From: Xanthostigma xanthostigma
Taxonomy: Eukaryota > Arthropoda > Insecta > Raphidioptera > Raphidiidae
Assembly: GCA_963575645.1 (NCBI GenBank)
Contig: OY754476.1
Span: 5,084,001-5,148,000, forward strand
Direction of reading: 5' to 3'
DNA length: 64,000 nucleotides
The notes beneath the pieces were generated by a model that saw only the letters and a list, made by a program, of their open reading frames with translations, had not been told where the DNA came from and searched no databases. Below are positions 13,442 to 59,700 of this stretch, piece after piece (the first letter of the stretch is position 1; the number at the start of each line of letters is the position of its first letter). The translations under genes were made by a program, and so were the position numbers.

Positions 13442-13757
13442 GCCACGGATCTAAAAGGTTCGGAAGCTAGTCACAAACAGCGTCGCAAAAGCACATTTTA
13501 GAGCCGTTGTGACTCCCACCACCTCCCAGCTACCTGCACGGAACGTGTGCTCGTCGTTGATTGGCCAAGATCGCTCGTTGCCTTTGTCACTTGTTGCTTT
13601 CCTGCTTTAAAGTACAGTCGAGTACGCTATTGTCAAGTTGTTATTGTTATTTTAGTTTTGTTGTGCTGCGAGTTTGTAGTTTTTCAACAGACTGTACAAG
13701 CGCAAGCCCGCATTCGTATCTAACTTCCGAGCCTTTTAGATTCGTGGCGCGTATTAT
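13442..13757. mobile_element. MITE family F, copy 1
   Basis: Ends GCCACGGATCTAAAAGGTTC and GAGCCTTTTAGATTCGTGGC. About 310 bp. Other copies: 15466-15790, 22718-23027, 26868-27133 (truncated). The 84-codon frame inside (MAKIARCLCH...) recurs in copies only because the DNA is similar. Confidence 0.85.
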
Positions 13758-14617
13758 ACTGATCTATAAACGCGATCATGTCAAACAAACGTCAGAGGTT
13801 TTTTCAGATCTATAAATTCTGATATTTTTCGAACAATGCAATATTACAAAATGAAAAATGAAGCACTTTTACAAAGTTAACTGACATCACATATACCTAT
13901 TTAGGATCTATATTATTTTTTTTATCGCAAAACAATGTACTTGAATAAAAATAAGAAAGATAACAAGTTACATCTAAAAACAAAGAATATATTTTGTATT
14001 TATTTTATTTATAGTATATTCACAAATTGTTCTTGTACTTATTTAGTTGATGACATAAGTGCAATATGTAAGTTCAGATAGGAGCGTCATGTATGTTAAT
14101 TAATTAAGTATGTACACTGTACAGTGCATACAGGCTGCCCGAAATTATTTTTTTGACATGTAGGTATTTTTATAATATTATCTACTAGTACCTATATCGG
14201 GTAATAAAAATTAATTGTTTCAAAAACAAGAAACCAGACTGATGCACAAAAATGAAATTAATAACTAAAAAGAGGAAAACAAGTCAGAAAATCACAACGT
14301 GCAGCAGGTGGATACCTACTGTTGGATTTTTAAAAGAAGACCGGTCAATGGAATGTAGTCCTATGACCTTATTGCAGAAGAGCGCACATGTATTTTATAT
14401 TAGTAAAAGGTAATGATCCTGGAACCGCTTCTATGCAATAAGGGAGTACAGTCGACCAAACGTATCGCAATTGTCGTGTCGCGATAATTGTACTATTGCC
14501 ATAGCTGTACGACTATACAGCGACACTTGCTAACAGTACAAAAAAATCATACACCAGACAGTACATAGGTGTGCGTCCACGAACTAAGTTGAGGGGTGTT
14601 GTCTGAATATCACTAAA
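13758..14617. other. Noncoding DNA, partly decayed transposon
   Basis: AT-rich. From about 14445 (TACAGTCGACCAAACGTATC) the sequence leads into a transposase relic and is probably the 5' end of that element, whose boundaries are not clear. Confidence 0.35.
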
Positions 14618-14776: not shown

Positions 14777-15011
14777 TTTGGGAACACATCAGCGACTTCT
14801 TGCCCTTTCCCCACCGGTCTTCTTTCGCCGATCGCACAGTATATTTGTCTCTCAATTTTGTTTTTGAATGGACCCAACCCGCTGCGTGTTGAAATTTTCC
14901 TCTTTTTAATTATTAAAATATCTGATTTTCATGATGAGTATTTGGAAAGAATTCCGTGGCATAAGGATCGAAAATGAAGCAATACTGAGACTTTTTTAAA
15001 CTTGCATTTAA

Positions 15012-15046
15012 TACTAATGTTTCGATACGTTTTGTATCATCTTCAG
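15012..15046 (-). ncRNA. Second hammerhead-like core, opposite strand
   Basis: On the minus strand CTGAAGA (15046-15040), stem II GATAC/GTATC, GAAA and AC-ATTA-GT then A (15012) are all kept. Stem I has no good partner because the flank on that side is the spacer, so the motif is probably incomplete. Confidence 0.45.
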
Positions 15047-15101
15047 CATTTGAACACTCTGAAGATGATACAAAACGTATCGAAACGTTAGTATTAAATG
15101 C
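15046..15101 (+). ncRNA. Hammerhead ribozyme-like motif (type I, minimal stem III)
   Basis: Core CTGAAGA (15059-15065), stem II GATAC...GTATC (15067-15081), GAAA (15082-15085), two-pair stem III AC/GT around GTTA, and A at the cleavage position (15093). Stem I pairs GCATTT (15046-15051) with AAATGC (15096-15101) across an internal loop. This order and very short stem III fit hammerheads of Penelope-like retroelements. Activity is untested. Confidence 0.6.
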
Positions 15102-15465
15102 AAGTTTATAAAAGTCTCAGTATTGCTTCATTTTAGATCCTTAAGCCACGGAATTCTTTCCAAATACTTATCATTAACTTCAATGGATCACAGTTACTCT
15201 ATTTATTGAATAGTCAACCTTCATATCTGATTTTCACTTCATTTTTAAAATTTTTGACAGCTCACTTGTGAGTAATTGTCACTTCATGTAAAGCAGCTAT
15301 TTTATAGACGATTTAAAAATTTTTTAAAATTCTTCATTTTGTTTTTTTGAACATTACAATTATAAATAGCTCGTAAAAAGATATAACGATGCGAATTTTG
15401 TTAATTAAGCGGTTTACTTTTAAAGACAAATATTATTCCGTTTAACAAACATTTAAAATGTAGTT

Positions 15466-15790
15466 ATATTACGCGCCACGGATCTAAAAGGTTCGGAAGT
15501 TAGTCACAAACAGCGTCGCAAAGGCACATTTTAGAGCCGTTGATACTCCCACCACCCCCCAGCTACCTGCACGGAACGTGCGCTCGTCGGTGATTGGCCG
15601 TGATCGCTCGTTGCCTTTGTCACTTGTCGCTTTCCTGCTTTAAAGTACAGTCGAGTACGCTATTGTCAAGTTGTTATTGCTATTTTAGTTTTGTTGAGTT
15701 GCGAGTTTGTAGTTTTTCAACAGACTGTACAAGCGCAAGCCCGCATTCGCATCTAACGTCCGAGCCTTTTAGATTCGTGGCGAGTATTAT
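15466..15790. mobile_element. MITE family F, copy 2
   Basis: TATATTACGCGCCACGGATC to GATTCGTGGCGAGTATTAT; nearly the same sequence as copies 1 and 3. Confidence 0.85.
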
Positions 15791-17449
15791 GTATTTGTTA
15801 CCAATAAATTGCTTGGCCAATATCAATTAGAATTTTTTGAATACGTTGAACAAATGTGACTGAGTTTGGTGAATGATACGGAGAATAAATTATTGTACCC
15901 TCTGTATAATATATAAGTACATAGGTGATCTGATGTGCTGATTACGTCATCTTATTTGCTGTAGTAATTTTGCAGTTGTGTTTAACTTTTGTGAAAAAGA
16001 TAGTTCTAATTAAGCATTAATAAATGTTTATGCTAATTATATTATATGTATCGTAAAATAACGTCTTAACATCGGTAAAACTTTTATATAAATGACATTT
16101 CCTTCTCAAATTTTGACTATCTCAAATTTTAAATTCCTCAAAAATAAACTGTGTATAATGCAAAAAAAAATTTATGACATCGTGACTTAGTATCCAATGG
16201 AGTATTTAATCGCATAAAAAATTCTTTGATCGTGGAATAAGTCCTGGGAAATATCTACAATAAATCCGAAAAATCTAGAAATGTTAGGGGTTTTTATTAA
16301 ATCTCACAACCGGAACCCACTCTGTTAGACAACTTTCTCCTAATAAAAAAAATAATAACTGTAAAATGACAAGTGTATGATCTACAATATGTCACAATAC
16401 AATGAATCATTCTTGGAATAAAAATTGCTCAATGAAAAAAAAAACAATAATTGTTTATGATGCACTGTTTGTTTTACATTTTTATATAGCAAAGCAGTTT
16501 GATTTCAGCCTTGCAAAGGTAATTCAAACAGTGTTCCACCGAACTTGTTAAAAGAAATAATTGCATATACTAAACATGCTATGAATGAACGGATTTCCAG
16601 GACAATATGATGAATGGATAATGTACAAAAATAAACACCAATACAATAGAGCTTAGACACAAGTTTGGTTATAAATTCGTTGTGCGAGTATAATATCAAA
16701 AAATAGATGAATATTTTTTTGCGCATTCCACCGTGGCCAGAAGGGTATCTATCGTGACCGGCCATTCGGAGGTTTTATATGATTTTCTGAAAACTATAAA
16801 CGCAAATAACTTCTAAACCAAAAGACAAACAGTGACAACGTTTGTACTTATTACTTAAAACAATTGACTACCGATCATCTTACTCAGCATTTACTATACC
16901 ACGCATGTATTATATATTTTGCCAACAATTTATTTAATAATTTATTCATTTGTTTCTATATACACGCTAAGCAAGTATGCAAGTGGGACTTTCGTAAAAT
17001 TATAATATAAGTAATTTTAACAGTTTGCATATCAATTTTTGGACATAATATTTCAAAACAAATATTAATTAAACTCTGAAGTTCTAATTTAAATATTTTT
17101 GGATTCTTAACAATAATTTAAACGAATAAAAATTCATAAAAATTACATATGAAAAAAATCTTGTGAGTTCACTAGCATTTATAATGGTTTAAGGTCAGTA
17201 CTTTATAATATCGAATAATAAACAATATCAATAAAAAAAATTCTTTAAAGTATCACGATTCAAGGTGAATTGTTTTAACATGTTTACTTTTTTATTATAT
17301 TTTGGCCTTGTTTTATTATTATATTATTTGTATTTTGTTTTTACTTACGAAGTGTTTTCAGTATTAATATTGAATTGGGGTTTTATTGTCTTTTGGCTTT
17401 ATTACAGAAATTAGAACTCGATAAGGTTTATATACAGATATCATGATCA
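15791..17449. other. AT-rich noncoding DNA
   Basis: No gene or bounded repeat. Short frames such as 16505-16765 on the minus strand show no protein features. Confidence 0.4.
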
Positions 17450-18459: not shown

Positions 18460-18814
18460 TTTGTTTACATGTGACACGTTCATCAGCGGACTTAGTAAGC
18501 GAGCGGTCAGTGCGGAAAGCTCGCGTTGGAGAAGCAGTCGCAGAAGGACGAAACACGAAAACGAAGAAGAGGGAGTCAAGTCACGGTATTCAGTTCCCAA
18601 TATAGATGTGACGTCAAGTTTTCCTCGTGCCATCTATAACACACATACAGACAAAAAGACATAAGCACACAAACAACATACATCGCACACGTACAGTTTA
18701 AAATAATATTATATACAAGAAAGGTGAAAGAGTGTGTGAGAGAGAAAGAGAGGAGAGGAAAAGAGAAGTAGCCTTTGGTAGCGGTGCGTGCCGTAAACTG
18801 CACCGTTTGCAAAT
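18460..18814 (+). promoter_or_regulatory. DUSP10: Promoter region and 5'UTR of the DUSP10-like gene
   Basis: A G+C-richer block begins at about 18475 in otherwise AT-rich DNA. GCGGTCAGTGCGG at 18504-18516 holds the arthropod initiator TCAGT (18507-18511) with no TATA box about 30 bp upstream. Downstream lies a purine-rich (GA)n tract (18718-18768), typical of insect 5'UTRs, then the ATG at 18815. An extra upstream noncoding exon cannot be excluded. Confidence 0.5.
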
Positions 18815-19442
18815 ATGTCTACCCTAGTTTGCTTTGAACTAGCCAACAACAGCGGTAGGCCGCGGGAAGGTCTAAAACTTGCACTGAATAGAAGCCTTAG
18901 TGAACCAGGTCCGCCGGATCTTCCGTCGCCGCAACAGACGACGCATCGTTCCAATCACCTGTTGAGTCCGCCGAAACGCTGCAAGCTGGAGTCTGTGAGC
19001 TTACCAACGAGTCCATGCGCCGAAGGCGCGACTCTTCAGCGAAGTCTCGTTCTGAAGAAGGTCGCACATCTTGACGCCGATGGATTGATGCGTAAACTGG
19101 AACGCTGTTCTGCCTCCGGCATGTTGACCAAAGCTTCTAGGAACTTTGTCATGGTGGACTGTAGACCGTTCATTGCTTATAATGTCAATCATATTCGCGG
19201 CTCGATCAACGTCAACTGTACTGATAGATTTAATCGAAGACGTTTACAGCAAGGTAAAGCGACGCTGGCGGACTTGGCTACCAGCAGAGATGGCAAAGAA
19301 TTGTTGAAGAAAAGAAATTACAAGGAAGTTATCGTTTATGATGATTGCACAACGGATTTCGAAAGATTACCCGTTACTCATCCGCTCTTCATTGTTTTGT
19401 CCAGTTTAGTCGAAGATAATCGGGAGCCCGCTTTTCTAATCG
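18815..19442 (+). CDS. DUSP10: DUSP10-like exon 1 (rhodanese domain)
   Basis: Encodes residues 1-209 plus one base of codon 210. Ends at ATCG|GTAAGT, phase 1. Residues 1-84 are Ser/Pro-rich and low in complexity; the rhodanese-like domain follows. The exon is clearly richer in G+C than the flanking DNA, as expected of a real coding exon. Confidence 0.92.
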
Positions 19443-22400
19443 GTAAGTCATTTTCTTTTTTATAAAAAATTATATTACCCCCGCAGCTAGACAGCTGCCA
19501 AAACATTTTAGTGTGGAAATTTTTTAAGTTTATTTTCAAATATTAATTAAGTACGGCCTACGTTCAATTTTATTTATTTCGATTATGAAACATTGTTTAA
19601 CTGTGGAATTTCATTGTTTTCGTTTCATGAAATATCTACTCATTGTGGTGAGTAATCGAACATTTTAGTGAATTTAAACAAATTATGCGATGACATTTTT
19701 TAAATTCAAGTACACTTTTAAATAGTACGTGGCTAAATTCACTTAAGTGAGTCATTTGTCTGTTTTAAGTTGTGATGTCAACATTCAACAGGTGGATAAG
19801 AGAGCAGACTACCTTATAAAGTCAATTGATAAATGATACAATAATAAACTTACAAAAATAACAAGTTTAAAAAAGGAATACTTGGCATTAAAGCAAACCT
19901 GTATATTATAGAGTAATCTTTTTTAACAAATATATATAGGTACCCTGCTTCTTTTTGTTCTAATAGGGTTTTGTGTTATGTGAATTCAAAACTTCTCTGA
20001 ACACGAATCTACAATATCTGCGGATTTTTTACAGACATAATATATATACGGCTATTTTTTTTTTAATTTATCGATTCGCCAATTCAAATAAATAATAAAA
20101 TTTAGCCACGGTAGATCATGATTTTAACTATCAAATGCATGAAGGAAAGTCGGTTTTGCTTTTCCATACATAAAGGGAATTTTTAGGCGTTTCAATATCT
20201 CTTGAATAAAAAAAATGAAAAACCTAAGGTATTTATTTTAAAAAAAGACTAAGAAAAATGTTTCTATTAAAGATGCAGGGAAATTAGTATTTTTTTTGTT
20301 ATTTAATATTATTTTCACATTAAAAAAAAAACGTTTTTTTCTGATATTAATATTCGTATGATTTTTGCGAATGCGCAAGTCACAAAATATGTGATTAATC
20401 GCAAATACGAATGCAAATACAATCATTGTATCACCAGTACTTAGTGTAGTGTATATAGGCCTGTTTCTAGTTCTACGAGTACATGTTATTTTTTTAACTA
20501 AAGACATAAAAAATTAAGAGTAACAAGTTTTGACATAAGTTTTAGTCAATTTTGACATGAAGGGGCGCCAAATATTCATTTCGCCAGGGCTCCTAGATAC
20601 GATACCAACAGTGCCGGGTTAAGACTTCTTGATGCTCTAAGCACTTCTTGCTTATGGGCCCCCATCTCTAATACGTTCAGTTTATAAAAAAAAATCAAAT
20701 TGTTAGAGTAAAGTTAAAAAGCATAGATTTTTAGGAAAAAAATTGAATTTCACAATCAAATGCTCAAATTGACAATTTGGCTGTCTATAAAATCGGACTT
20801 TAGGCATTTTAATACAATTAATAAAAAAAAGGTTCAAAACTTTAAAATAAAAAAAAAAATTGAACACTTACGAAATAATGTTTTTTCGTTTTCATTTTCA
20901 AAAATAAATAATTATTTATTTTTAATTTCTATACCTACTTCTAAAGACATATCAGTAGATCAAATATTGAAAACATGATAAAAAAAAAATTGTTGACACG
21001 GTTTAGTGGGGTACTTTTCATTTCTGAGTTGCTTCATGGTGCCCCCTGAGACGTGATGCCCTAAGCAATTGCTTATTTTGCTTATAAGTGAATCCGGCAC
21101 TGGATACCAATTAAATAATTTGATGAAATAAGTGTTATATGTATATGTATTGAGGGTTTTTTAGTTAGCCTCAAGATTTTGGCCAGAAATTTACTTAAAT
21201 ATTAAGATATATTACTATATTCTATAATATTAATTAACGTATGTATACAAGAACACAATATAAACATTAAAAACTTCTATCAAAAGACAGCACGAGTAGA
21301 CGACCTTAGTATATACTGATTCATGACCTCCATGACTCAGCACCCAGTTTCGTTGTCTTTGTCTGGTTCATTTAGTAAGTTTATCTTTCAACTTAAGACA
21401 TATTAAATTATTGTATGTGTACATAAATACATTGGCTTTTAAATAATAACAATCTTTGAACCTGCGACCTCTGTTTTAGAAATATTACCGATCAAGGTAA
21501 ATGCTGATAATAATTTAATATTGTTGTTCCTAGTTGCTTACTTCCGTATGATTCCAATATTTACTACCGTGCTGCAATAATTTATTAATAACACTCTCAT
21601 TTAAAATCCTCACGGTAGGAAGAAAAGGTCAATTTGTAATAACTGCATACTCCATGACGCTACGGAATTACACAACCAATTATGATTGTGTGTAATGCAA
21701 CAGCTTATTGTCAGGAAGAACAATTAATTTCTTGACCTGCCTTGATTTATGTGTAAACGACAGAACATTCCGTGATTTTGCAATGTGAATAACAATCATC
21801 TATCACTCATGAGAAATTAATTATAATAAGAATAGGCTAATAATTTTCGAAGTGAAACTTCTTTACGTACGGTAGAGCTGTAAATGTTAATTAAAAACAT
21901 TGTTTCATCTTCATCATAAAGTAGTGTTGATCCAATAGAATGTTACGATGAAGGAAGAATTTGGTTGAGGATCATAAATAAGCTTTACCAATGTTACGCT
22001 AGTGGCCAAACTCATAATATAATGATCATGTATATTGTTAGAACAATTTACCACCTTTTGACCAGCTTGAGGCCCTGAAGATGAAAATAAATTTTTCGAA
22101 ATGTTGGCCACTATAGCGTAACATTGGTAAAGCTTATTTATGATCCTCAACCAAAAGCTTCCTTCATTGTTTCATCTCTTTGTTTTGGAAATGTAGGTAA
22201 CCAAAATGTTTTGAAATAATAAAGATACTATTTTTCCCGATATTAGTTCAGACCTGGTATATTTATTTGTTGTTTATATTGAATGACTCAAAATAAATAT
22301 GATTATGTAATCTTAATTTATTGATTAAAAATAGATTGAGAAAGTGAAATATTATATTAAATAGGAAGCACCTGCACCAATGAATCAAAAGTTAAATAAC

Positions 22401-25400: not shown

Positions 25401-28400
25401 TTTGTATTTTTTTGGCGACAAATGTATTTACATTATACAGTATTTCTAATCTTGGCAACGCTTATGTCCAATGACGAGGTCTCTCGACAATTTATGAACA
25501 GTGGTTTTCAAACTTGAAGTTTCTTCTCAGTTCTTTCGTTGCTATTTTTTGTACTACTGTTTTCAGTTCAGTTTTAAATTAAGATTCATACATATTTGCT
25601 GATATTTGTTTCTAGTGAAATCAGTAAGACAAGAAGAAATAGTTGTAAAAAATCTAAGATGAAAATATTTATCTGAGTTTTTTCTGCGTATTTACGATAG
25701 TTCGGTGCAATTTTTTTTATCTAAGTGACAATAAGCATTTTACGTATTTTATCAACAAATGATTTTTTTCTTTTTATATATATGAAACAAAAGAAAGTAT
25801 CTACCATATCTCAACATAATAGATTATTATTTATTGAAGGCAGTATCGTAAAGTTTGATTTTGGAATTTGTATTAAGAAATTGAAAGCAGCGAAATAAAT
25901 TAAAACAAACATGCGAAATAATTGTTCTTTATCTGACGTGATATAGGTTTGCAAAAATAGGAATACTGATTTGTAAATTTCTGTTGATTATAATTTGCCA
26001 ATAATTTAATCTGTGATCTATCTCTTTCTCTCTTGATTAGCCCAGAACTACAAACTGGCTAGTTTACACAGTGCGAGCTGCTGACTAGACAGTAGACAGC
26101 TACTCGGCTTGTCTACTCGTACGCCAGTAGCTCGGCTCGCCTTTGCTGTCTACACGATACGAGTAGCTGCTGTCCAGTCTTGCGAGTTGCAGATGTCGAA
26201 TTCGTTAAACACTACGCAGGCGCAGCACAAAACACGGGTTCCGCTCAGTAGACTATCCCGCTCGCATTGGCGAGCTACTGCCGAACGCGTCCAAGCGATG
26301 CGAGCGACGGCCGAGCTGCTGTCATGTACGAGTTGCTGGCGGGCGAGCATGCGAGTGAAAACAAAAAATGTTGAAGTAACTCGGATGCGAGCTACTGTCT
26401 AACTCGCACGTGCGAGTTACTCGTAAGTGACGTCCAAACAGTGCGAGTTACTGCAGTGCAGCTACTCGGCAGGCTGACACGTACGCTAGCTCGCACTGTG
26501 TAAACTAGCCATTAAACTGAATTATTATTGACGCACATAATGGTTTTGCTACCGTTGCATCTTAAAAATGAAAAGAAAATCGAGGCCACAAAATATGCCC
26601 TTTTAAATCAACTTTATTTTGAAAATGTCAACGAAACGTGTTATTTGGATAGAGGTTGTCCACGCCAGCCTTGTTTGTTAAAAAATATTGTATATAAACT
26701 TGGTAAACACGGAAGTTTGTGCCAAGAGTGGCCGATTTTCAAAATAGTGACTCATATCTACAATCCCGCGTATGTAGGTACAATAAAAAAAGCATGTTTA
26801 TTCTAATTTTCAGTCCGACCTCATGGCATTGTCACAAGACAAAGTGGATTATGTAAAATTTTATACTTGCGCTTGTACAGTCTGTTGAAAAACTACAAAC
26901 TCGCAACTCAACAAATCTAAAATAACAATAACAACTTGACAATAGCGTACTCGACTGTACTTTAAAGCAGACAAGTGACAATGGCAACGAGCGATCACGG
27001 CCAATCACCGACGAGCGCACGTTCCGTGCAGGTATCTGGGAGGTGGTGGGAGTCTCAACGGCTCTAAAATGTGCCTTTGCGACGCTGTGTGTGACTAACT
27101 TCCGAACCTTTTGGATCCGTGGCGCGTATTATACCCGCGGTTGAGAAAAAGAAAGAGTAGTATTCAACAATAACTTACCTGTGTTCTTTCGTAGCTACTA
27201 AATTGCTGTGTATCGATTCGTCTTAGTGATTGGGTATATGACGTCACCACGTATTTAGTATGGCGGATGACAGACGCAAATTCTTGACTACGGTAAAAAA
27301 AGAAATACAAATGACTATTGTCGGAGTGTTGAAGGCACTTCGGCTACAATGAAAAACCTGAATCACTGTTCTATTTCGTCACCAAAAAATTATACATACG
27401 CCACCTGACTTGTGGATGCAGAAATTACCTATTCTACATATAGATAGGTAACATGCTTGCTTCATGAGTCTATTTGAGCGTTGAGTCAAATATTTTAACT
27501 GCCAATTTGAAACGGGTACTTTGAACTTTGCAAAGAATGAGTAATTTTTTTAAGTTCTATGAGACGATTTACATAAATGACTAACTTACCGGTACCGGAA
27601 TGCGAGATAAAGCTAAATGTCAAAATTCAAACCTATAGTTGTTATTTTTTATATAGGTACATGTGAATATCTACTACGTATTGCAGTCACTAAAAAACAT
27701 TTAAAAAATTGCATCTCCTTAACAAAAGACCACTATCAAGCTTACAATAATAAAGTTTTGAGGTTCAAAACTATAAGTTACTAGAGTGAGCTGTGCGAAT
27801 TATTCGCACTAAATAAGTATAATAATTATCACTTTACAAAATTATTTTTTAAATATGATTGCAGGTATTCATTTCGTTTCTAATTTTGCACACTGCTTAT
27901 AACGTTCTTCTTTTTGTTGTATTACAATATGAAGCTCAGATGACAGATCGAAGAAATATTTTACTAAAATTGTCATATAGAGGTGCAAGTAGCAAAAGCG
28001 TTGAGCTAAGCCGTCAGATGGCATCATGCAGCATTGCTATGACGTTGTTCAGCGTTGCTCGCTGTTTCAAAATTAAAGTCGTCAGATGGCAGTATGCAGT
28101 ATTGTGTCTGTTGTATTACAATATGAAGGTCAGATGACAGATCGAAGTGTTGACATTGTTTCAAAATTAAAGCCGTCAGATGGCAGACGTTGTTCAGCGT
28201 TGCTGTATTTTAATTAATTTACAAAAACAAAAGCAATGATAAATTTTTTAGTTGTCGATGTCAGTAGAGCAAGCAATTATCTGTGAAATGATATATAATT
28301 TATGTGGAGAAATTGTGAGGTTTTTTCTAAAAAGGGGGGCAAACATCTTTAACCTAAGCGTATTAATATATAATATGATAGTAATTAATTTGGTAGCGAC

Positions 28401-31400
28401 CTCAGAACTTTATTATTTTACGCACTTTAGTACACCCTTTTTTGAAGGAGATTTAATATTTTTTTTGAGTTTTTTTTATTAATAATAAATTATTGTCGTT
28501 TACCTATACGTTATATAAATTATTAATGTCATCATTATAAAATTTAAAAAATATGGAAATATTTGTGGTTTATAAATTTGGTATTTTATAAATGGTATTT
28601 CTTCCGTTTTCCTCAAACGCATTAGATTATTTCTGTAGTTGCATGGCAAAGTTGAGTATGTAGCATTTTTTATATTTAGGTACATCAGATAAAATAGCTC
28701 TGTTTTTGTTGCAACGAAAAAAGACTTAATTAAATCCTTATTATAAAATATTTATTTCTTAATACGTTAAATGGCGCACAAAAAACTCAAATGTAATCAA
28801 CGTGTAGGTACCAATATAACTAAACCCCAGGAAAGTCGCAACGTATAATAGTTTTTATAGGTCACCGTTAATTTTTGTATCGAGAGTTAAATTTAGAATT
28901 CATGTTCTCATTGTCTGCAAGTACATATTTTTAATAATACATTTGTCTAGAAACAGTTTTCACTACATAGCAGTAAAAAACTATGCAAAAAAAGATAAAA
29001 ATATAAAATAAAAATATGCAAAGTATTTTTTTGGCGTCAGGAATATAACCGAATTCCTAGGGATGACGTTGTTGAACAATTCAGATTTTTATTATCTTCT
29101 GTTAAAAAAACTCGTTCCCACACGGTCACATCCGCGATTTGGTGAATTTAATTTGGATTTTCATTATAATGATAATAAATTATAAATAAATCGTGGAAAT
29201 TCGTATCCTCAAAAAATAATACATTAAGTATATTATACTAGCGGTCCCGCCCGTTCTCACCCGGGTGCAAAAGAACGAATATGGGGGGAGAGGAACATGA
29301 ATACGCACATTCATCTTAGTTTACCGAGATGAATGTTGTGTCCAAATTTCATGATGATCGGAGTTACCGTTCAAACGTTTTTGCCACATTTTTCATTGAT
29401 GCTCCGCTCCTATTGATCGTAACGTGATATTGTATAGCCTATAGCCTTCCTCGATTAAAAAAATTGTTTTCAATTCGAACCAGTAGTTCCTGAGATTAGC
29501 GCGTTTAACCAAACAAACAAACTCTTCAGCTCTATATATTAGTATAGATAATATATATATTTTATATTTATAAAAAAAAATGCAAACGCTCTATTTTTAT
29601 AAAATTTATATTAAAATTCCTGAAATACTAAGTATATGTCCAAATGTCATTATTATTTATCATATAAAACTATTTTGAATAATTGTATAAACTACGTCAT
29701 CCTAGAACGTGTTAAAATTTATATTAAAGGTGAGTCATTTTACTGAATATTGATTTATTGAATATAAATTGGCAATTCAATGTGGGCACACCATTTCTTC
29801 AAAATGCTTGGCATTGAATTTTTTTTTTAAATCCCGAACATTGATCGTCTATATTCGGAAGAAAGTTGTACCAATATAAACTTCAACAAATTTCAAATAA
29901 TTCACAGAAAAAAAAATACTAGGTCTAGTTATATAATATGTGCCATGGCGTCTTTTCTTTTATTTTTTCACTAGCGGTCCCGTCCAATTTCACCCGGGTT
30001 CAAAAGATGGAATGGGGAAGGAAGGGATATGAGTACGCACGTTCATATTAGTTTACCGAGATGAATGCTGTGTCCAAACTTCATAATAATCGGAGTTACC
30101 GTTCAAAAGTTTTTGTCGTTAAAAAGCAGTATTTATAGTTTTTTTAAGTAATTTTCTTTTAATATAATAAATATTTAATTGAAAACACTGTAGGAAAATT
30201 ATTTTTATATATAGGTACCTATAGTTGTAACAGTTTTCGAATGAGCTATTAATTAGATTTATTTAATTTTAATTATTCGTAATAAAATTTTTAAAAAATT
30301 GAAATGTAAGCCTTAGAAGAAAGCAATGTAAAAAATAAATAAAAATATATTCGCCGACGTGGGGCTTGAACCCAAGACCCGGGCATTAAGAGTCTTACGC
30401 TCTACCGACTGAGCTATCCGGGATTGTAACCGTCACGCGCTAATATTGCAATATTTAGTTAAGACATTTCACCTGCTAATATTTGTCGGACGGACTAATT
30501 TTGAGATACATCTTGCAACCTTTTTCCGCTCCACTTTGTCGTAGCGTGATATTATATAGCCTATAGCCTTCCTCGATAAATGGGCTATCCAACAAATTAT
30601 TTTTTTTCAATTCGAACCAGTAGTTTCTGAGATTAGCGCGTTCAACCAAACAAACAAACTCTTTAGCTTTATATATTAGTATAGATTTGTGTGAAAAATA
30701 GTTCGGACCTGATATTATCATTATTGATTTTCAACTTATCATCGATTAATAATAATCAATTTAGCACAAAAACTGTTGTTTTTTTTTATTTTAGAAGTAT
30801 TATCAAGTATATTAGTAATGTGTAATCATCATGACTAGTTACACTAATAATGAGTGCTACATATAAACAATAATTGTATCTAAAAACTGATAATTCTATC
30901 TCTTGACTCACCTGTAATTTTTAAAATATTATAACGTAGCGTATACTAATGAAATCATCAAAATATATACTCATTACTGATAAGTGCAAAACAAATTTAG
31001 ATGAACTAACGATTAATTATAGAAAAATCTTTATCTTTGTTCTTCAGCTAAAGATATAATACCAATCAGTATATTTGTTAGTTTCCCAATATGTGTTAAT
31101 ATTAGCAAAAAAATTAGTAAATCTCTGGGTAAAGATAACTTCAAGATAAATGTTATTGATAATTAAATTTGTACTTATTTTGTACCTAAATAGGAAAACG
31201 TATTAATAAACTGCGCGAGTGCAATTTGATGACAACGTAACATTATTTTATTACAGCTGTAACTTTACACATTGTCAGATTACACATAACTAACCCTTGA
31301 TTCAAATACGGTCACCGTTTCAGAAAATTGTACAAGTTAATAAAATTAATTTCCTCAATAAATTAAATTATCGACCAATTTTTCAGACAAATATATTAAC

Positions 31401-34400
31401 AAAAAATAATAATTAATACATTGACGTTTCGGTCCGGATTTGGATCTTCTTCAGAAATATGTAATCTAAAAAGTATAAAAAAGAATTAAGTATCTACTTA
31501 TTTTACAAATAGAATTAAGATTGAATTTTTTAAATAATTTTTGAAAAATTGGTCGATAATTTTATTTATAGAAGTATTCTAATCAGACGTTAATCAAAGA
31601 TTTGAAAATCAATTTTCTTTCATATTTATAAATAAACCTAGCTATTCGACAACCCCCACTAACTTTCTTGTAAAATATGAGCAGTCCTATTAAGTCCCCA
31701 CAGTCTCCCTCCTTGTATGTCCTATAGAAAGAACTAGTCATACCGTGTCCGGTGATATGAAAATTAGATGAAAATTCTTAAAGCCATTTGTTTAAATGTA
31801 TTTTTACCGGCTTTTAGGGGGATATTTGAGCTAAAATAGATTTTGTGATTTCGTCTCGACGTGTGATTGTCCCAAACACGCATACAAAATTTCAGCTTTA
31901 GCGACCCAGAGGTTTGGACACTACATGCGACCATAGAAAGACGAAAGACAGATTAAAAAAAGTCACCTTTTTGGGTTTAATATCAAAAACTAAAAATCAA
32001 TTTTTTTCCATTATCACAAGGTTTTCCCTATAAAGATCGTACTTCATATATGAAAGAAAAACACACTGATTAAAAAAAAAACAATAAAGAAAAACATCGG
32101 AAAATCCCAAATCAAAGATATTTTCAAGAAAAATAAATGACATTTGCTCACATGGATAATAAAGTATTAAATATTATATTGTTTATCTGAAGACAAAAGT
32201 ATGACTCATCGTTGCATATATGCATGTATAGTTTATGGTTAGAATCTTTCATTTTGCATAAAATTAATTCATTTGTTTCGACCTTCGGCAAAATGCACTC
32301 AATTTCATTGGAAACAAGATATCCGGATTTTATATTTACGGTTATAGGTATAACAATAAATTATAATTTGACAGTACCACTTAAGTTTTGCAGAAACACA
32401 ACAAATCACATAAGTACTAACTGATTTCGAACAAGCTACATATGAGATTAATAATATAGTTGAATAATATAAGGGCCCGTGTCGTCTAACTACTGAGTAC
32501 TAGATAGTGTAGTAGACGGAAATTATATTTAGGAATGACAATTTTGTGTCTCAAGTACTAACCGAAACATCGTCCCGTAGAATTTAACAATTTTTTGACG
32601 TGATAACGTCTTATAAATTGATGAAACACCGGCTGCACGCACGAAAAAGAGTAACGTTCCGCAAGCGAGAGCGCGATATAAGCGATAGTCTCTCTCTTCT
32701 CGCGTGACGTCAGAGAGTAGTGTGCGTTCAACATTTTTTTCGGCTGTTCCAGCGAAAGCTACATCTGACAGATGGCCAGATAAATTATACGGTTTGTTAA
32801 CAAATATATAATATATATACATTCTTTTAAATGTCTTTTATAATTGCTTAAAAATATGTATTTTGCTTTGGTTGATCAAATTATTAGTCGGTAAAAATAT
32901 AGTTTGACAGCTACTAAAATTTAGGTTATGTATTATTAAATATGATATTCGAGCGGAATACGTTATCACGTAAAACTATCGTCCGTAAACTGACTTTACA
33001 GACAACCAATTTTGTTTTCAATAATAAGGTAAAAGTTTGGGGTTGTTCATTTAAATAAAATTGTTGTCATTCAGACCAACAGACATCTGATTGCTAGTTC
33101 TGCTGTGTTGAGTTTCAACCGATCAATCTAGATACTAATCACGTAGTTTTATTGATATTTAAATTTATGGGACAGAGTATAGCCGCGTTTTTCGAAAACT
33201 TATTTTCACCCAATTTGATTTAATTTACTTACTAGTTTAGGTTAAGTGCAGGCAAAACCGTTTCATTTTCTGCCTGGATGAAAACAGGTACGTATTTATA
33301 CGAAATTTAAAGTAACTTAAATAAGTTTTTGTGACGAAATTATGAATATTTTAAGGATTACATGAGTCATCTACATATCATCATAAAACTATGTAAAATG
33401 TTAAAATTCTTCAAAGAAAATTATCATATTTAGGTAGAAATATTGAGGCAAGAAAGACCAGTTTCAGGATATTATATAATAAAATGCATTAATATTATAA
33501 TAATATGGAAATGAGGGTTCGGTTTTCTGTTTCATATATTGGTATAAAAAAATCCGGTTAGGATTGTCTTCAAAACCCCCATTTCTAGTATGCATTAGAT
33601 GTAAATGATTAATAATATAACCTGGTGCCAAAAGTATTACCTTGTATATGCCGCTTACATTAAATAAGGGATGAACCGTAATTTGTAATTGCATATTCAA
33701 AATAAGGGTACTTACGATGTATTTACAGTATGACTCATAGCCATACAGATTTGGATCACGTCATGACTATCAAATTAAATGCGTCTATCTCGATAAAATG
33801 ATAACAGATAATCATTCAACATTGAGACAGATATAGCCAGATGAAATCATCTGATATTTCAATTATTTACTAAATACGCATTTGTTTTAAAAATTAATAA
33901 TTTGCTATATGAAAAAATATATGAGGATGAATTGTGTTGCGACTCTTAAAATCTTTGATTTCTGTCATCGAACACACCCTGAAAATGATCTGATCGCTTT
34001 TTACGAAAGCCCAGAACTGGATTTTATTGTTGGATTAAATGCCGCCAATGGTTTCTTGATCATACTAACAGTTCAACATAGCCTAATTTTGCTTTGTATA
34101 TATGTATATATCGTAATGATACTATTTAAATAGGGGTGTATTTCTAGCATAGTATGATTCATTCACCACGTGGCTGTCAAACTCATACCCGACCGTTTGC
34201 TGTTATGGTATGACGTGTTAAAAACAATAGATTTCGGCTTCTATTCAATACCGGAGAGGGGTTTATATTTATATAAAAGAGCCGTTGAACTGTCGACTGA
34301 GGGATGTTTAACATGAGTCACCGTTCATTTTGCCAGATTTCTCTCGATTATTATTTATCGACATTAAAACGGGACCCCATGTACACTTCATCAGTCCTGA

Positions 34401-40400: not shown

Positions 40401-43400
40401 AGACACTCTATAGTCTGGCACTATTTCTTTTTGTGTTTATTATTCTGCGGTACAACCTAAAGGCGCATCCCGACTGACATCCGCGATACGTTCGTTGTTA
40501 GTTTATTCTATCAATAATTAATTTATTACTAAATATCTTCACTTACAAGTTTTCAAAAATGAATTCGAAAAAAAGAAAAACCTTTTTGTTTTGAGATTAA
40601 AACGAACTCAAAACCTTCTCTCCAAAGTGAAAAGGCATCTCTTATATTAAGTAATTAATTAAAGTATTGCTGTTAGGCAGTAGTTTCAATTCGAGTAATG
40701 GCATCTTATTGGCAGATGATGTTCAATTGTTTGATGATATTTTTCTCGACTGTTACAGGTGGTCACAAAGAATTCCACAGAAAGCATACAGAATTCTGTG
40801 AAGACGCATTACTGTCGACGAATGGCAGATCGATGGGTTCCCCAAATAGAGGAGTTTGCTTGACGGCAAATCCATCAATAGCAGATGTTGGGGATAAAAA
40901 CACCGATTGCGGTGGAGGAGGTGGTTCAGAACCACTTCCGGACATAGACACCCATCCCGCTTCACGAGTATTACCGTTCCTTTATCTCGGCAATGGAAAA
41001 GATGCTGCCGATTTACAATGCCTCCGATCACTAGGCACAACATGTGTCTTAAATGTTACTTCACAACTTCCTGGTTATCACGAATCATGTGGAATTACCT
41101 ATAAACAGATACCTGCAACCGATTCGGGTCATCAAAACCTTAAACAATACTTCGAAGAAGCTTTCGACTTTATCGGTAAGTTTATAATTTAATTCCTACG
41201 ATCTGTTCAATTTGGAAACATGTAATCCCTAAGATTATTGAAGTATATCTTTTGTCATATAATTTGAAAATAATTACAGATGTTGATAATTTCACTTGAA
41301 CATTCAAATAGTTCCAAAATTGGTGTTCTGTGATAAATTAAAGGGATGGAAACATTATTTTTATAGTACCTATGTCTACAATATTTCAGCACTTAATCCA
41401 AAACTATTTTTGTGGTTTATGGACTGAAATTTTCGTAAAGCTAATTTACAGCAATTAAATACTTTTAGATTAAGAGCTGTTAAGAAAATGCATATCTTGG
41501 ATAAGTACAATGATTCAGAGACCATGTATGCATTTATTCAATTAAAAACTATGTGTACTCGAGAAGGATATAAGTATTGTCATTGCTGATACAATGAATT
41601 GTTATTGTATGTATCATTGATTAACATAATATTGAAGTAACAGACACATATTTTTATAATCAGCCTCATTAATAATTACTCCAACAGTCAACCAGCATGA
41701 ATCACATCGCGAGGTTATATGGATGACCTATGTAGAGCCTTTATTATTTTATCAAAATTAGTTTAAAAACTTACTTTTAAGTCCACCAATTTTGCGATTA
41801 TTTCAATGTCTTTTAAAAGTGAGAAATGAATTAATCATTATATGCCATTGATTTTGCTCTCCAAAAAATATTTGGTATTACAAATTCAAGTGATATTTTC
41901 TAATTAACACGCCAGTGAAAAAATTTAAAATATAACTTGATATTTTAATTACCTATGTGATTTGAAAACATTTTGAAATTTACAATTTTTTTCTACGATT
42001 CAAGGAAAATATAGAGTATGTTTTTAAAGTTTTAAAGTACATGCTGTATATTTGTAACGTAAATTATAAAAAACGTGTGAACCATAATTATACAACGAAT
42101 CAAAGGTGGTCTGAAAATCTGTTGCATTAAAGACTATGGATATAATTATTCATTAAGGATGTATCATCATTATAAACAATATGACGCATTACAGAATTTG
42201 CTTTATTCCAGGTAAATCGAAGATGACAAAATCGTTTGTTTTTTTTTGTTACTAAATTCATGTAGTCAGTGGTGGTAATTCCATGAAATAATTATTTTTA
42301 ATTCTAAATAAAAGTTTTCAAACTAAACGCTTAGCAAATTTATGCACTAATATAAATAAAAAATCAAATATAAAATATAGAGATTTCATATAGCCTCAGA
42401 CCTTTTATGGAACTGTACCTCTTTATAAAATGGAAATCCCACTGTCCAATGGTCAGGAATAAAAGCTCTTTCGTTCAATACTACACGAATCGCTTAAAAG
42501 GTTGGGCATACTCTATCATATAATATAATCTGTATTCCTTTAATTTTATCGGGGCATTTAGGTTGGTAAAATGATGAATTCCATTGCACGACATTAGGTA
42601 TTTGATTAACATTCAGCAACTATTATCCATTGAATCGACTATTAGGTAGTATATACGTACCGATTTTAGTGTTACTATTCATTATTCTTTTCTATTCACG
42701 ATAAAAAGTAAATGATATAAATTATGATTCATGATGTGAACATGCGGTTTGAAGTCAGCAAGAAATACGGATATTACCGTTAGTTTCAAACATTGTTTAG
42801 CTGTTAACACTAAAACAAAATATTATTGAAAAAGAAAACTTTTTAAATGGTTTATCTGAATAAAATTAAACTGCATATCAACTTACGTGCTCCAAATCAC
42901 GCAATCTATTTTTACAAGTCTAGATCATATGCTTTGATAGAGGGACTTCCCCACCCCTTAAATGTTGGTGGACAGATTATATTCCAGGCTCACGAGCCTC
43001 ATGTATTGTTGCCTGGCCAAGAATAATGAATAATGGTGGTTGCAAGTGACACGTCCACTGAATTGTCTATATTTTTATTTTATAAAAAAAGAACATAAAT
43101 CATTTTGCTATTTACGATCAAGTGACTTTTTCAATTTATGGAAAAATATAATAAGTAATTTCATATGCAAAATTCAAATTGTTTATTAATAATTGAATAG
43201 ACAAGTTATATAATGAATGATGATTCATTCTAAAGACGTTTTAAAATTTAAAATAACTTATTGAAATAAATGGAAATGAAAAAATAAGTCATCCATCAAT
43301 TTATCAGTGTCGTACCAACTTTAAACTCGAAACTTAGTACGTGGTACTTTTGTTTGGTCAAATTTCATAGATTTCCGCTTATTCGAGCAAAGACATCGGC

Positions 43401-44108: not shown

Positions 44109-44280
44109 AAGACAAAATTTACTATTTATATCTAGAATAGGTGACTTTATACAGAATATTGTTTGTGTGCTAGTTATTATTTTTGAGTCAGTGTTTTGTA
44201 AAGAAAGAGGTGAAACATTATTTATTTATGATACTATTAAACACTCGTGCGTAACAATATTGGATAATAATTTATTATAA

Positions 44281-44524
44281 AGTTGTGTTGATCCAATAGA
44301 ATGTTAAGATGAAGGAAGATTTTGGTTGAGGATCATAAAATAAGCTTTACCAATGTTTCGCTAGTGGCCAGCGTTTCGAAAAATTTATTTTCATCTTCAG
44401 GGCCTATGAACATGTAGGTATATATGTATATATGAAGATGAAAATAAATTTTTTGAAACGTTGGCCACTAGCGAAACATTGGTAAAGCTTATTTTATGAT
44501 TCTCAGCCAAAACCTTCCTTCATC
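44281..44524. repeat. Foldback element, family N copy 2
   Basis: Starts AAGTTGTGTTGATCCAATAG as in 21912-22172. Minus strand has CTGAAGA (44400-44394), stem II and GAAA (44377-44374); the plus-strand core is mutated to ATGAAGA. It lies about 170 bp after the phosphatase stop codon. Confidence 0.75.
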
Positions 44525-44906
44525 ATAATAATTTATTTAAAAGTAGTATCACTTTAGTATTGCCGTGTCAGAGGTTGGCATTTTTTTACACGAAAATTTC
44601 TTTTACAACCTATTAGAAATATAAGGTTTGTTTGGTATGATCGCAAAATCGTAAACGTAATCATGTGTCGCGGTGTAGTATTTGATACAGTTTTTACAGT
44701 AGTTCTGGGATAAGGTACCAAACAGAACTTAACCATTTTTTGATAAAATAATGTTAGATATTTCAAATGCAGTCTATATATTTAACGTGAAATTATTTTT
44801 GAGACTATTGGTTTCAAAACAATAGCTGAAAAGAAAAATAATAGTTCTGCATTTGACCAACAGAATTTTTTCGGTGTAAAACTCTGTTTGCGTTATCTGT
44901 AAAGGT
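44525..44906. other. Intergenic DNA
   Basis: No gene or repeat recognised. Confidence 0.4.
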
Positions 44907-54467: not shown

Positions 54468-55860
54468 AATATCTAAAACCCATCATAACCATTATCCTTA
54501 AAAATTTACCAAGTTTTACTTTCTTTGAAATAATTACCTTTGGCAAATTATCTACACGATTAATACGTGCACAAATTTTGGTAAATTTAAAAGTACACGT
54601 AATTGTTTTGTTTCGGAATTTTCCACCGGCCTTTCGTTAACGATTTTTGAATTAAAAATACGTGGCCGCTATTAACTTATGAAGTCCAAAACTCAAATGA
54701 ACTCTTGATAATGTATGTACTTAATACAAAAATGTAATTTATTCTGTATTTATTAAATTAAACTTAATTTGACATGTGAGAACTGCTAAATAACAGCAAA
54801 GCTGACAGTTCAAACTCTGTCTAATGCCATCTGCCTTCCACAGTAAGCGTTATAATCACGAAAACTAGGGGTGACCAGTTGGTGAGTTCGGTGAAACTCG
54901 TTTCTATTGGTCAAACTATCATTATATGAAAAAAAAAAAATAAATTTCTCGACATGGCCTTTTAAGAAGAAAAAAAATAATGGATTCGGCTTTGCTTTAC
55001 AGTCTGCGTTAACTAACAACAGTTATTTCTCGAGTACCTGCAATCTTTTAATTTTGTATGGTCATAGTCAACGAAGTAAAAATTTCTAGCCCCTTGATCA
55101 TAGTCGGTCTTCGACAAACTACCTCACCACCCTTTATGACAGCATATTTTGCAACGAAGACGACTACACTCCATGGTCAGACTCATGGAGTATAGAGGTT
55201 ATACTCCATAGACAAACCTTTGCATGCAACAATGGCCGCGTCTCGATTAGCGCATACGCTATCTGGTAGGTAACTCCACAGCTAAAAAATTACCAACAAC
55301 AACACCCGCTAAATATAAATGTTTACTTGCATTTGAAACAAAATTTTAGTATATCTTAAACGAATTGCATAATAGAAATAAAGATCGGTGAATGATGTAC
55401 GCAACCTTGTTTTGATTTTTTAGTCGTGTAGGTACTAAAAAAACTTGGATTAATGTTTTTTACCTAGACTTGATAATATTTATTTTAAGAAATATAGAAT
55501 CTCTCTGTAAAATGTTATGGAATGCTCCCGACCGATTGTGTCATTAAGTTTAATCTGAACGTCACCCTTCCTATTTTATTTTTTTTTTCACTCGAAAGGG
55601 AAATATTCAAGTGCACGGTCTCCACAATAAGCGTAGATAAATATTAGATAGTCAAAATCATAAATTATTAAAAAATTGAGTATTTTACTCGCCAATTTCC
55701 GCAAAAAGTCTACCACAAAACGTAATAACAATTCGGATGTGTTTTTTTAAGACACCTACAATTTTAAGCATTTTAAGCCGTTACTATTTCAATAAAAATT
55801 TAACAAAATAAAATAAGACACCTTGCTATTATGGTATGATAAAATAATATGGGATTCACG
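54468..55860. other. CRELD1 upstream flank and intergenic DNA
   Basis: The promoter of the minus-strand CRELD1 gene should lie just above 54468 but no TATA box or initiator stands out. The rest has no gene; short open frames at 54810-55089 are spurious. Confidence 0.4.
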
Positions 55861-56052
55861 GCTAAAATATTAAAACAATTTTTATTCACTAGAACATTAT
55901 TTATTGGTCAACGTTTCGGCAAAATTTCTTGTCTTCTTCAAGACCTTAAAGATCTTTAGTGAAAAGTCACAAAATTAAAAACATAAAATAAGGTCCTAAA
56001 GAAATTTTGCCAAAACGTTGACCAATAATAAAAATTGTTTTAATATTTTAGC
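55861..56052. repeat. Foldback element with hammerhead-like remnant
   Basis: Arms GCTAAAATATTAAAACAATT and its inverse. CGTTTCGGCAAAATTTC followed by CTTCTTCAAG resembles the reversed core of families N and B, with an extra base in the CUGANGA segment. Confidence 0.6.
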
Positions 56053-56225
56053 TTTGTATCCCGTATAATTTTATCAATAAAAATTTAGATACTCCTCGTA
56101 AAGTGAACAATGAACATCCTCCTTGGTTTATAGCTTTATTAAGAGAACGACGCGTCGTTATTGATTTTTTATCGAATGCATTCGGCGTCGTTGGGAATCG
56201 GGCGTCGGGCGTCCAACAGAATTCG

Positions 56226-56756: not shown

Positions 56757-59700
56757 GTAATTTTTTTCAATTTATATATTATTATCATCAATTCGTACAA
56801 TTTCTAATTTGTATATATTTTTTTTGAAATTTCATCCAACTAAATAATAATTAATTATATACCTAGGTCACTTATTAGCTTAGAAAGTGTGTAATTATAT
56901 CAAGGTAAAATTTATTTCTTAAATATTCAAGCAAACAGAATACTGCCAGTTGTTACAAACCCAATGTTCTAAGAACAATTAAATAAATATTTTACATCAT
57001 TATTATTAATCACTTTTACGGTAAACTGTATCAAAATAATCCATGATTATGTACCAAAGACAATTTAATAAATTGTTGTGTTGATATATTGCCGCTTATA
57101 TTTAGAAAATATGTAGATTATATCCTTAACTACTTACCATAACACATTTTTTCACACCTTCATTAATAGATAAAAAGACCAACAACTTCTTGAACTACAA
57201 ACCAAATTATTTTATAAAAATTCCCGACTCTCAAACATTGAAATTTTTACAAGCAAATACAAAACAATATTATAATTTTTTTTCTGCTTTTTGAGTACAT
57301 ATAATCAAATCACCATCGACCATAACTTTAGGCTACAATAATTTAAATATTTAGAAGGTTAATGCAGATGTTTATTTGACTATTTATCACTTTTTTCAAC
57401 ACAATAAAAAACTGATTGAAATATGTTTAAAAAAACTAAAAAAATAAATTGAACCTTGAAGGTGGTTCATTTTTTTTTTAGTTTTTTCAACATAGTATAT
57501 AAAAATATCTCCTTTTTTTGAAGTCAGTCGACTGAACCAATTTTTATAAAAAAATTATTGTACCAATCGGCAAACTTTCTGAACAAAACGGCGTTGAAAT
57601 TTTTTAGATCGGTTTACCCCTCGAAAAGTTATGGCTAAACATACGCGTCGAATATAGAACCTCCCCCTTTTTGAAACCGGTAAAAAATATAATAAATGTT
57701 TAGTATGCAAGACATGAATGCTCAGTTTCTGATACAATTTTCAGTTTTAAATTTATGTTTAAGAAACTAAATGGAGATTTTTATTTAGTTGAAAACAGTT
57801 CCCATTTCAATGCTGAAAGTCATATCAGAAAGTGAGCTTATATCTTCGAACTATTTACTCGAGCACTTGTCATCTATGAAAGCTTCTTTTTTTTAAAACC
57901 TTATACAAATCTTTAGAACTCTTCAATAAATAAAATTATCGACCAATTTTTCAGACAAAATTATATTAACAAAAAATAATAATTAATACATTAAAGTTGC
58001 GGTCCGGATTTAGAGCTTCATCAGAACTTATCTAAAAAATATAAAAAATAATTAATAATTAGTTTATAATTGGCTTTTGAAAAAATTCGCTTTATGTTTC
58101 GTATGATCAAATATTGAAAAAATAATAACCGAAACGTTAAAGTATTAATTATTATTTTTTGTTAATATATTTGTCTGAAAAATTGGTCGATAATTTTATT
58201 TATTGAAGAGCTCTGCTTTATAGTTCAACAGCTGTCAGTTTTTAATTTTTTTTACGTTTTATTGGCATCTCGGCGGATGTCACTGTATACACTTTTAATT
58301 AAATTGTCAAACGCGTCGAAATAAAAATCTCTTCGTTCATATTTTAAATTGGTATATGTCTAAAGGTGGCACTTCACATGGCTATTTGTGTTCGCTATTG
58401 GGTGTTTGTTGTATTTAGCAAAATATATGACGTTCAAGGCAAACATGCAAATAGAGGCAAATACGACCATCCACACATGGCAGTCAAATAGCAAACACAA
58501 AAACATTTGGCAGCAGAACGCAAGGTTCAAAATTTCAGGAATTTTAGCACTGTTTCATTGTTCCAATTCATTTTCAATAGTAATTGTTCCAGTTCTCGTT
58601 CACAGCACAGACACAAAAATACTGTACGTCCGTACAGGTTCACGGCGCGTGCACTTGAATATGGCCATTGTGTGGACGGTTTATTTGCGTATTTGCCTAT
58701 TTGATTCCTTTGATGTGCCTCGAAAAATCGACAAGCGCACAGTAACACGTATTTGGTATTGGCCTTATTTGTCAAATAGGCAAATAAGGCCAAAACTTTG
58801 TCAAATAGACTGTCCACACTTGGTAATTGTTTGCCAAATACACAAATACAAATAGCCATGTGAAGTGCCAGCATAATAGACGTGATATGCCGTTAGCTTG
58901 GCAGTTTTATGACAAGAATTTTGAGCACTTGGGAGGGAGTCGAGCTCTGGACCAGAGACAATATGTAACAAATTTATATAAAATAAGCACACATAATATG
59001 TATAGGTACTATAATACATAAATACAAAAATTAAAAGCCAGCCGACTTACATTTCGACGAAAGACTTTAATGATTTAATTAATTTATATTAACAATGCAG
59101 TACATTTCGATTTTATTCGTTCCGAAGAACGTGGAATCCAATTATCGTATCACAGATTGAAAATATTTCAGGAAGTATATATATAAAACGGGGGGGTTAC
59201 ATAAGACATTTCGGGAGGGGTTTTACCCCCAAAACACCCCCCCCCCCTGCCTACGGCCTTGGGCATAACAGTAAAATGTTAATACTGAAACTGATATAGA
59301 CGTTATGTACATAGAAGAAGACGTGATAAGTGATATTTTTGCAGAAAGGGGGAGTAGTGGGTATTGGCAGAAGGGGTCAATCGGTCGTTGTACTATTGCT
59401 AGGCATTTGTGTTATACTGACTGTCTTTACGAGACTCTTTTTTGCGCGGTGTGCAAACTATTGTCGTTTTAGAGCTTGCCGTAGCTTCAGAGTAATAAAA
59501 CGGACACAAGCAGGTGGAGTCAATTGACTGCTGCACCGATCGTAGGCACTTTTCCTGTAGATTAAAGACGGTGTAACGGATATTGGCAGAAGGAACAATC
59601 GGTCGTTGACCCGTCATCAGACTAGTGTGCTATACTAAATGCTATTAAAAAACGGGTAGTATTTAAACGAGTGACTGTAAATTACAATTTTGGGTGACAA

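Follow-up and report, generated by a model that had tools for sequence, protein, structure and literature searches.

The hammerhead-like motif at positions 15046-15101 of the 64,000-nt stretch of DNA analysed here (the window) is very likely a minimal type I hammerhead in which helix III is not conserved, such as occurs at the junction of pLTR and ORF in Penelope-like elements (PLEs), and it very likely sits in an ORF-less, head-to-head PLE insertion whose route of formation we infer below. This insertion, termed element A, looks like an inverted-end leftover lacking an ORF and not like a new kind of ribozyme-bearing element. The link to Penelope-like retroelements, which the earlier note had suggested and which is drawn from anatomy and motif, appears to hold: the core reads CTGAAG-ATG, helix III is not conserved, the predicted cut lies 25 nt from the ATG and the tails are one-sided. 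In a check of the sequence, every letter previously attributed to the motif of A was present at its position. The foldback setting was likewise confirmed, the arms 14923-15046 and 15059-15182 being 94% complementary and separated by a 12-nt centre.

Features of element A (positions in the window)
14918..14931, left target-site duplication ATATCTGATTTTCA, 14 nt, exact
14932..15222, element A, the whole inserted foldback, 291 bp
14932..15046, minus strand, short arm (inverted pLTR end), from C3 of the minus-strand core to +109 from A9
15016..15046, minus strand, second core (A_L); helix II intact, ACAT for ACGT, stem I not contiguous by the core (descriptor scan, site comparison)
15046..15222, plus strand, long arm (pLTR end with complete hammerhead), ending at +158 from A9 (15065)
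15046..15058, plus strand, 5' strand of stem I: GCATTTGA, internal loop AC, ACT (MFE fold)
15059..15065, plus strand, catalytic core strand CTGAAGA, C3 to A9 (sequence)
15066, plus strand, additional T separating A9 from helix II and making CTGAAG-ATG (sequence; excerpted PAc text of PMC11167929)
15067..15081, plus strand, helix II GATAC/GTATC (15067-15071/15077-15081), loop AAAAC (sequence, MFE fold)
15082..15089, plus strand, GAAA core strand (15082-15085), ACGT (15085-15088) as presumed dimeric stem III, H17 = T15089 (sequence; by way of excerpts of PMC11167929)
15090..15101, plus strand, 3' strand of stem I: AGT, A, TTAAATGC (MFE fold)
15174..15222, plus strand, 49-nt extension (tail), at this end only
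15223..15236, right target-site duplication ATATCTGATTTTCA

Anatomy and formation of the foldbacks

Several such elements had been suspected to exist, and five further foldback loci with a related core were indeed found in the window, at 44.4 (B), 22.1 (C), 31.4 (D), 55.9 (E) and 58.0 kb (F), in addition to A at 15.1 kb. The further cores were located by pattern and BLAST searches of the window, F being read by eye. By BLAST, B groups with C in one family and D with F in another, so that the six loci represent four families.

Further foldbacks (TSD, target-site duplication)
44277..44524, element B, 248 bp; TSD ATAATAATTTATT at 44264-44276 and 44525-44537; 31-nt tail at 44277-44307
21911..22164, element C, 254 bp, family of B; TSD CATTGTTTCATCT at 21898-21910 and 22165-22177; 40-nt tail at the left end
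31355..31572, foldback D, with outer arms of 31 nt
55803..56073, element E, 271 bp; TSD TCAATAAAAATTTA at 55789-55802 and 56074-56087; 37-nt tail
57915..58214, foldback F, family of D

Foldbacks A, B, C and E, four of six, are bordered by exact direct repeats of 13-14 nt that differ in sequence, whereas repeats of at least 13 nt were reached in 6 of 1500 random placements; a target duplication was sought at the ends of D and F and none was found there. One arm of A, B, C and E aligns up to its duplication and the other extends further, by 49, 31, 40 and 37 nt respectively, the tails being one-sided in all four elements that bear duplications. Similarity between the tail of A and that of B and C is weak. 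For all four of these elements, the short ends fall between +84 and +109 when counted from A9, which is the A of the ATG. The long ends, counted in three of them, fall at +118 in B, +133 in E and +158 in A; that of C is located on its coreless arm. The arms are inverted and head to head in A, B, C and E and are also inverted in D and F, and we infer that they correspond to pLTR. It is to be noted that the aligner forced gapped matches into the centre of B and C and that the second arm of E lacks two inner stretches.

At the inner junctions of A, B, C and E, recognisable arm sequence extends only ~5-13 nt beyond C3 in the upstream direction and ends where stem I begins, as if an RNA template had started there. 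The letters at these junctions are the 12-nt centre in A, AGGCC common to B and C, and TAAGGTC common to the arms of E. D and F extend further: they are similar to each other over ~50 nt upstream of the core by BLAST and up to ~90 nt by gapped alignment, and the pLTR part of D and F would therefore be longer.

The earlier note had seen no reverse transcriptase in the element, and we found none: a scan of the six frames of the window for reverse transcriptase and GIY-YIG signatures, using short motifs and not profiles, returned no GIY-YIG and, in an 11-aa frame, a single YxDD ascribed to chance. With neither signature in the window, the enzyme would have had to come from elsewhere. Since target duplications, head-to-head inverted arms and one-sided tails are published features of PLE insertions, and in view of the end positions, foldbacks A, B, C and E are read as PLE insertions, the ends of which would have begun at PLE start sites. 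The foldbacks, their duplications and their one-sided tails are observed; the source enzyme and the order of the steps are our reconstruction, as follows. A PLE enzyme from elsewhere in the genome would open AT-rich DNA by a cut staggered by 13-14 nt, and PLE RNA would be reverse-transcribed from an internal start, at one of two sites ~31-49 nt apart. An inverted copy would then be added at the opposite end of the insertion, the copies in A, B, C and E stopping within or just upstream of the hammerhead, and outward-facing ends, one tailed and one tailless, would result.

A more specific proposal, which we put forward tentatively and give somewhat less than an even chance, is that the foldbacks record two-ended PLE priming, in which both sides of the break would be extended off element RNA, regularly with one end per reverse transcriptase start site, and the short cDNAs would be joined head to head. 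Under two-ended priming, the RNA of the longer arms would have been unprocessed at the hammerhead, since these arms keep it uncut. Cleavage by the hammerhead was also considered as the event setting the inner ends of the arms and found no support: only the second arm of C ends near the predicted cut, those of A and B reaching C3 and U4 and that of E 7 nt beyond. How PLEs finish their insertion and what purpose their hammerheads serve are presented as open questions in passages of PMC11167929 and PMC7761336. ORF-less foldbacks with clean duplications, a tailed end and a tailless end are simple, countable products of insertion, and their inner junctions and choice of tail, collected genome-wide, would test both two-sided priming and prior cutting of the RNA by the ribozyme.

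The non-autonomous foldback family proposed in the earlier note stands as one option, albeit an unlikely one. It supposes a self-standing unit that would be transcribed and copied in trans by a PLE enzyme, the hammerhead processing its RNA. Copies of such a unit would share a centre, and those of B and C are unlike when both are read the same way round (125 of 500 shuffles scoring as well) and only weakly similar when one is inverted (20 of 500), whereas the arms are strongly similar (0 of 500); the second arms of B and C moreover end at different points. Points in favour of copying of a unit are that B and C, members of the same family, occupy separate sites and have target duplications, that D and F are a second such pair and that, according to PMC3846280, pLTR sequence alone was enough in a rotifer for an unrelated gene to be mobilised in trans. 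Because the arms of B and C are alike and their centres are not clearly so, separate formation at each insertion is favoured by this comparison of two copies only.

A further point against copying of a unit is that, in A and B, the ribozyme is predicted to be hidden inside the folded full-length transcript. By equilibrium folding of full-element RNA, the probability of helix II was ~1e-16 in A (either strand) and 1e-12 in B, and the arms of the full-length A transcript were predicted to pair as one long hairpin. The corresponding value for C was 0.66; C exposes the core, its second arm ends near the predicted cut and, according to the structure string, the 3' strand of stem I pairs with the other arm. 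The ribozyme is likely to be silent in a transcript of whole A or whole B and, since the long hairpin predicted for full-length A would prevent dimer cleavage, is most likely a passenger in that foldback.

The hammerhead-like core and its recurrence

The core and helices of the proposed PLE-type hammerhead are present in the sequence of A; catalysis is predicted. In the isolated 61-nt RNA 15044-15104 (plus strand), the MFE structure consists of stem I with a small internal loop and helix II, CTGAAGA and AAACGTT being left unpaired. The earlier claim of a hammerhead-like core was thus sustained by letters and fold, and this predicted fold corresponds in outline to a type I hammerhead lacking helix III. 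Pair probabilities were 0.99 for helix II and 0.37-0.41 for the core-adjacent ACT/AGT of stem I. Stem I exceeds the length originally described, GCATTT at 15046-15051 with AAATGC at 15096-15101: it comprises ACT/AGT by the core, the internal loop and then GCATTTGA/TTAAATGC. The extra base T15066 pairs with G15082 (core G12) as a wobble in the predicted fold. A longer piece of A (15040-15125) folded differently, the core strand being paired to the end of the left arm, with an energy z-score of -1.0. The isolated RNAs of B and C gave the same MFE arrangement as A, in which stem I and helix II form but helix III does not; stem I pair probabilities were 0.77-0.78 for B and 0.94-0.99 for C. As to the second core reported on the other strand of A, it is present at 15046-15016 (minus strand) with helix II intact, but it has ACAT and not ACGT and lacks a contiguous stem I (0 contiguous pairs; three of six scattered, or a six-pair match offset by 6 nt).

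Cores of the other loci
44370..44400, minus strand, core of B (B_R): helix II GAAAA/TTTTC, stem I GGCC/GGCC, ACGC replacing ACGT
44432..44462, plus strand, second core of B (B_L): C3 changed to A, helix II five of five pairs (one G-U), ACGT intact, stem I lost
22075..22105, plus strand, core of C: helix II GAAAA/TTTTC, stem I GGCC/GGCC, ATGT
31423..31454, minus strand, core of D: CTGAAGA, helix II four of five pairs, ACGT, H17 = C, weak stem I (two of four)
55910..55941, minus strand, core of E: TTGAAGA (C3 changed to T), helix II four of five pairs, stem I GGTC/GACC, ACGT
58024-57993, minus strand, core of F, decayed: GAAA changed to GCAA

With the first core of A denoted A_R, the CUGANGA...GAAA core is complete in five of the eight sites (A_R, A_L, B_R, C and D), one base being changed in E, F and B_L. 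Helix II pairs fully (5/5) in A_R, A_L, B_R, B_L and C and at four of five positions in D, E and F. Over the four core-adjacent positions of stem I, counting G-U, four pairs form in B_R, C and E, three in A_R and F, two in D and A_L and one in B_L. The base between A9 and helix II is T or A in 8/8 sites, and ATG is spelled there in A, B and C only, as CTGAAG-ATG (ATGAAG-ATG in B_L).

Minimal PLE hammerheads were reportedly described by Cervera and De la Pena in 2014, and work on their dimers is said to be that of Lunse et al. in 2017. Helix III is usually missing in PLE hammerheads according to excerpts of PMC6155905 and PMC7761336, and passages of PMC7761336 and PMC6466107 indicate that these motifs may work as dimers. 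A monomeric hammerhead in A, with AC-GTTA-GT as stem III and a cut after A15093, is by comparison a very unlikely reading. The letters permit it in both arms of A, but both pairs are missing at equal spacing in B, C, D, E and F (the letters there being GC in B and C, AT in D and F and AC in E), and its cut would be 29 nt from the ATG and not 25 (26 in PAc). The two-pair stem III of the earlier note, found only in A and not kept in the other families, is probably wrong, and cleavage after A15093 found no support, the reading without helix III and with a cut at 15089/15090 agreeing better with the literature. A stem III formed between two RNAs via ACGT, with a predicted cut after ACGTT (15089/15090), would fit better; the distance from this predicted cut to the ATG, counted from the sequence, is 25 nt in A, B and C. 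By analogy with what is reported for this family, two hammerheads in the RNA of the parent element would share stem III via ACGT and be cut after ACGTT, and this cleavage would probably be slow or helped by the PLE protein. ACGT is intact in four of the eight sites (A_R, B_L, D and E) and reads ACGC in B_R, ATGT in C, ACAT in A_L and ACTT in F. Cofolding of two copies gave no hammerhead dimer in A, B or C.

In a strand-swap test on the six loci of four families, from which A_L and B_L were excluded, helix II strands formed on average 4.50 of 5 pairs within a locus versus 2.63 when swapped, 4 of 720 permutations being as good, and stem I strands 3.33 of 4 versus 2.40, with 12 of 720 as good. 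With one locus per family these counts became 1 of 24 for helix II and 2 of 24 for stem I; the true pairing is included in all counts and the loci are few. Helix II and stem I appear to be backed by covariation, albeit over few loci, the four family versions carrying different strands that match.

A descriptor consisting of CTGANGA, 0-1 base, helix II with at least four pairs and GAAA matched four sites in the window; across 300 dinucleotide shuffles the mean was 0.17 sites and the maximum 3. The four sites, from three elements of two families, are not independent. Three sites remained when at least three pairs of stem I were added, versus a shuffle mean of 0.01. The structured motif exceeds chance, the descriptor having been chosen post hoc, after the loci had been seen. 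In the window, A_R was the sole fit to the pattern CTGAAGATGN{8,34}CGAAACGTT. As an outside negative control, viral contigs scanned for the same pattern gave 44 matches in 43 stretches, several of them the same gene in related contigs, and none of the 44 combined at least four pairs of helix II with at least two of stem I. Matches to looser patterns in the window, at 28085 (minus), 24315 (plus), 33572 (minus) and 19391 (minus), were absent from the structured descriptor scan and were taken as chance. The exact 23-base motif of A had 0 matches in the genome-contig and viral-contig collections, and a literature search on the motif letters yielded no PLE paper by title among the matches listed.

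The earlier note had counted the lack of a covariance-model match among the outcomes speaking against a hammerhead, and this outcome was obtained: in the Rfam scan of the window 0 matches reached the gathering score, and within 14850-15250 no hammerhead was listed up to E = 10. We do not consider this miss decisive, because the hammerhead families of Rfam presumably describe forms that possess helix III and lack the extra base. The scan of 14850-15250 yielded 26 matches with E of 10 or less, many to microRNA families and all below gathering scores; a microRNA precursor was rejected, since any long hairpin resembles one.

Neighbouring sequence

Three ORFs on the plus strand (18797-19465, 40677-41192 and 43692-44108) carry Rhodanese and dual-specificity phosphatase domains, the DSPc match of the middle one falling just under the Pfam cut-off. 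They are perhaps one MAP-kinase-phosphatase-like animal gene, in which case C and D would sit in its long intron. Element B (44277-44524) starts ~170 nt past the stop of the last phosphatase ORF and may lie in the 3' UTR of that gene, forming a long hairpin in the mRNA. An ORF on the minus strand (52472-52960) has EGF-like matches below the Pfam cut-off and is by eye presumably CRELD-like.

Dispersed repeats were also observed. ORF-like segments at 13561-13815 (plus), 15594-15830 (plus) and 26832-27128 (minus) have similar translations and form one repeat family, of which one copy (15594-15830) begins ~370 nt after element A. Another dispersed repeat occurs at 44903-45199, 58364-58855 and 60955-61251 (plus), with similar translations FVFAIGC.LYLAKYMTFKANM.IEANTT, and a further one as two near-identical ORF-like copies at 32529-32837 and 53229-53483 (minus).

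Comparison with known systems

MITEs and foldback DNA transposons have inverted repeats and direct target repeats. An ordinary MITE with long terminal inverted repeats, in which the hammerhead-like core arose by chance, would share this appearance and would agree with the absence of a hammerhead detected by Rfam; it is nevertheless extremely improbable, because the ends are asymmetric, one being 31-49 nt longer in the four elements with duplications, because the duplications measure 13 and 14 nt and differ in sequence, and because a core seldom produced by shuffles recurs in four otherwise unlike families whose helices are different but matching. A MITE was rejected given that the terminal inverted repeats are not symmetric and the tails are one-sided. 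Scarcely credible, too, is a non-LTR retrozyme, a canonical type I hammerhead in tandem repeats spreading as circular RNA: the window elements resemble the animal retrozymes of PMC7229834 in being short and non-autonomous, with a type I core and no recognised ORF, but the excerpted text describes units repeated in tandem, whose hammerheads are canonical in helix sizes and in loop contacts, whereas the units here are inverted foldbacks with minimal hammerheads and no predicted helix III, and this candidate was rejected.

The closest likeness of our PLE-type motif is to the minimal hammerheads of PLEs. Passages of PMC7761336 report thousands of such motifs in the genomes of many animals, for the most part scattered through non-coding DNA; as a ribozyme discovery, the present motif is therefore ordinary. 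In the text of PMC11167929 on PAc of Anolis, C3 and G8 precede the ATG of the ORF, the start of which coincides with stem II. The PAc motif has both stems I and II as well as loop II, its cut lies 26 bp from the start codon, and cleavage in vitro requires the protein. From the same text, PAc appears to have the same extra base before helix II. The motif of A agrees with this arrangement in the ATG right after G8, in having stem I and helix II but no conserved helix III, in a predicted cut ~25-26 nt from the ATG and in AT-rich insertion sites. It differs in that no ORF follows, the frame from the ATG of A stopping after 8 codons, and in that several copies in the window miss core bases, catalysis here being predicted from the sequence.

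Regarding the insertions themselves, the PAc enzyme is described in the same passages of PMC11167929 as cleaving and extending both strands at AT-rich sites, with reverse transcription starting 111-118 bp into the ORF and an optional 30-40 bp tail between two start sites; the 49-nt tail of A exceeds this length. Penelope copies, according to PMC3846280, carry adjacent inverted pLTRs, mostly head to head, with an optional 31-bp tail on one of them and target-site duplications of 8-10 bp, as compared with 13-14 nt in the window. Unlike the insertions of Adineta vaga described there, both arms in the window are short (+84 to +158 from A9), with little or nothing between them. The foldbacks share with those inverted-pLTR insertions, which are said in the same text to occur also in fruit flies and fish, the head-to-head ends, the tail of ~31 nt at one end and the target-site duplication.
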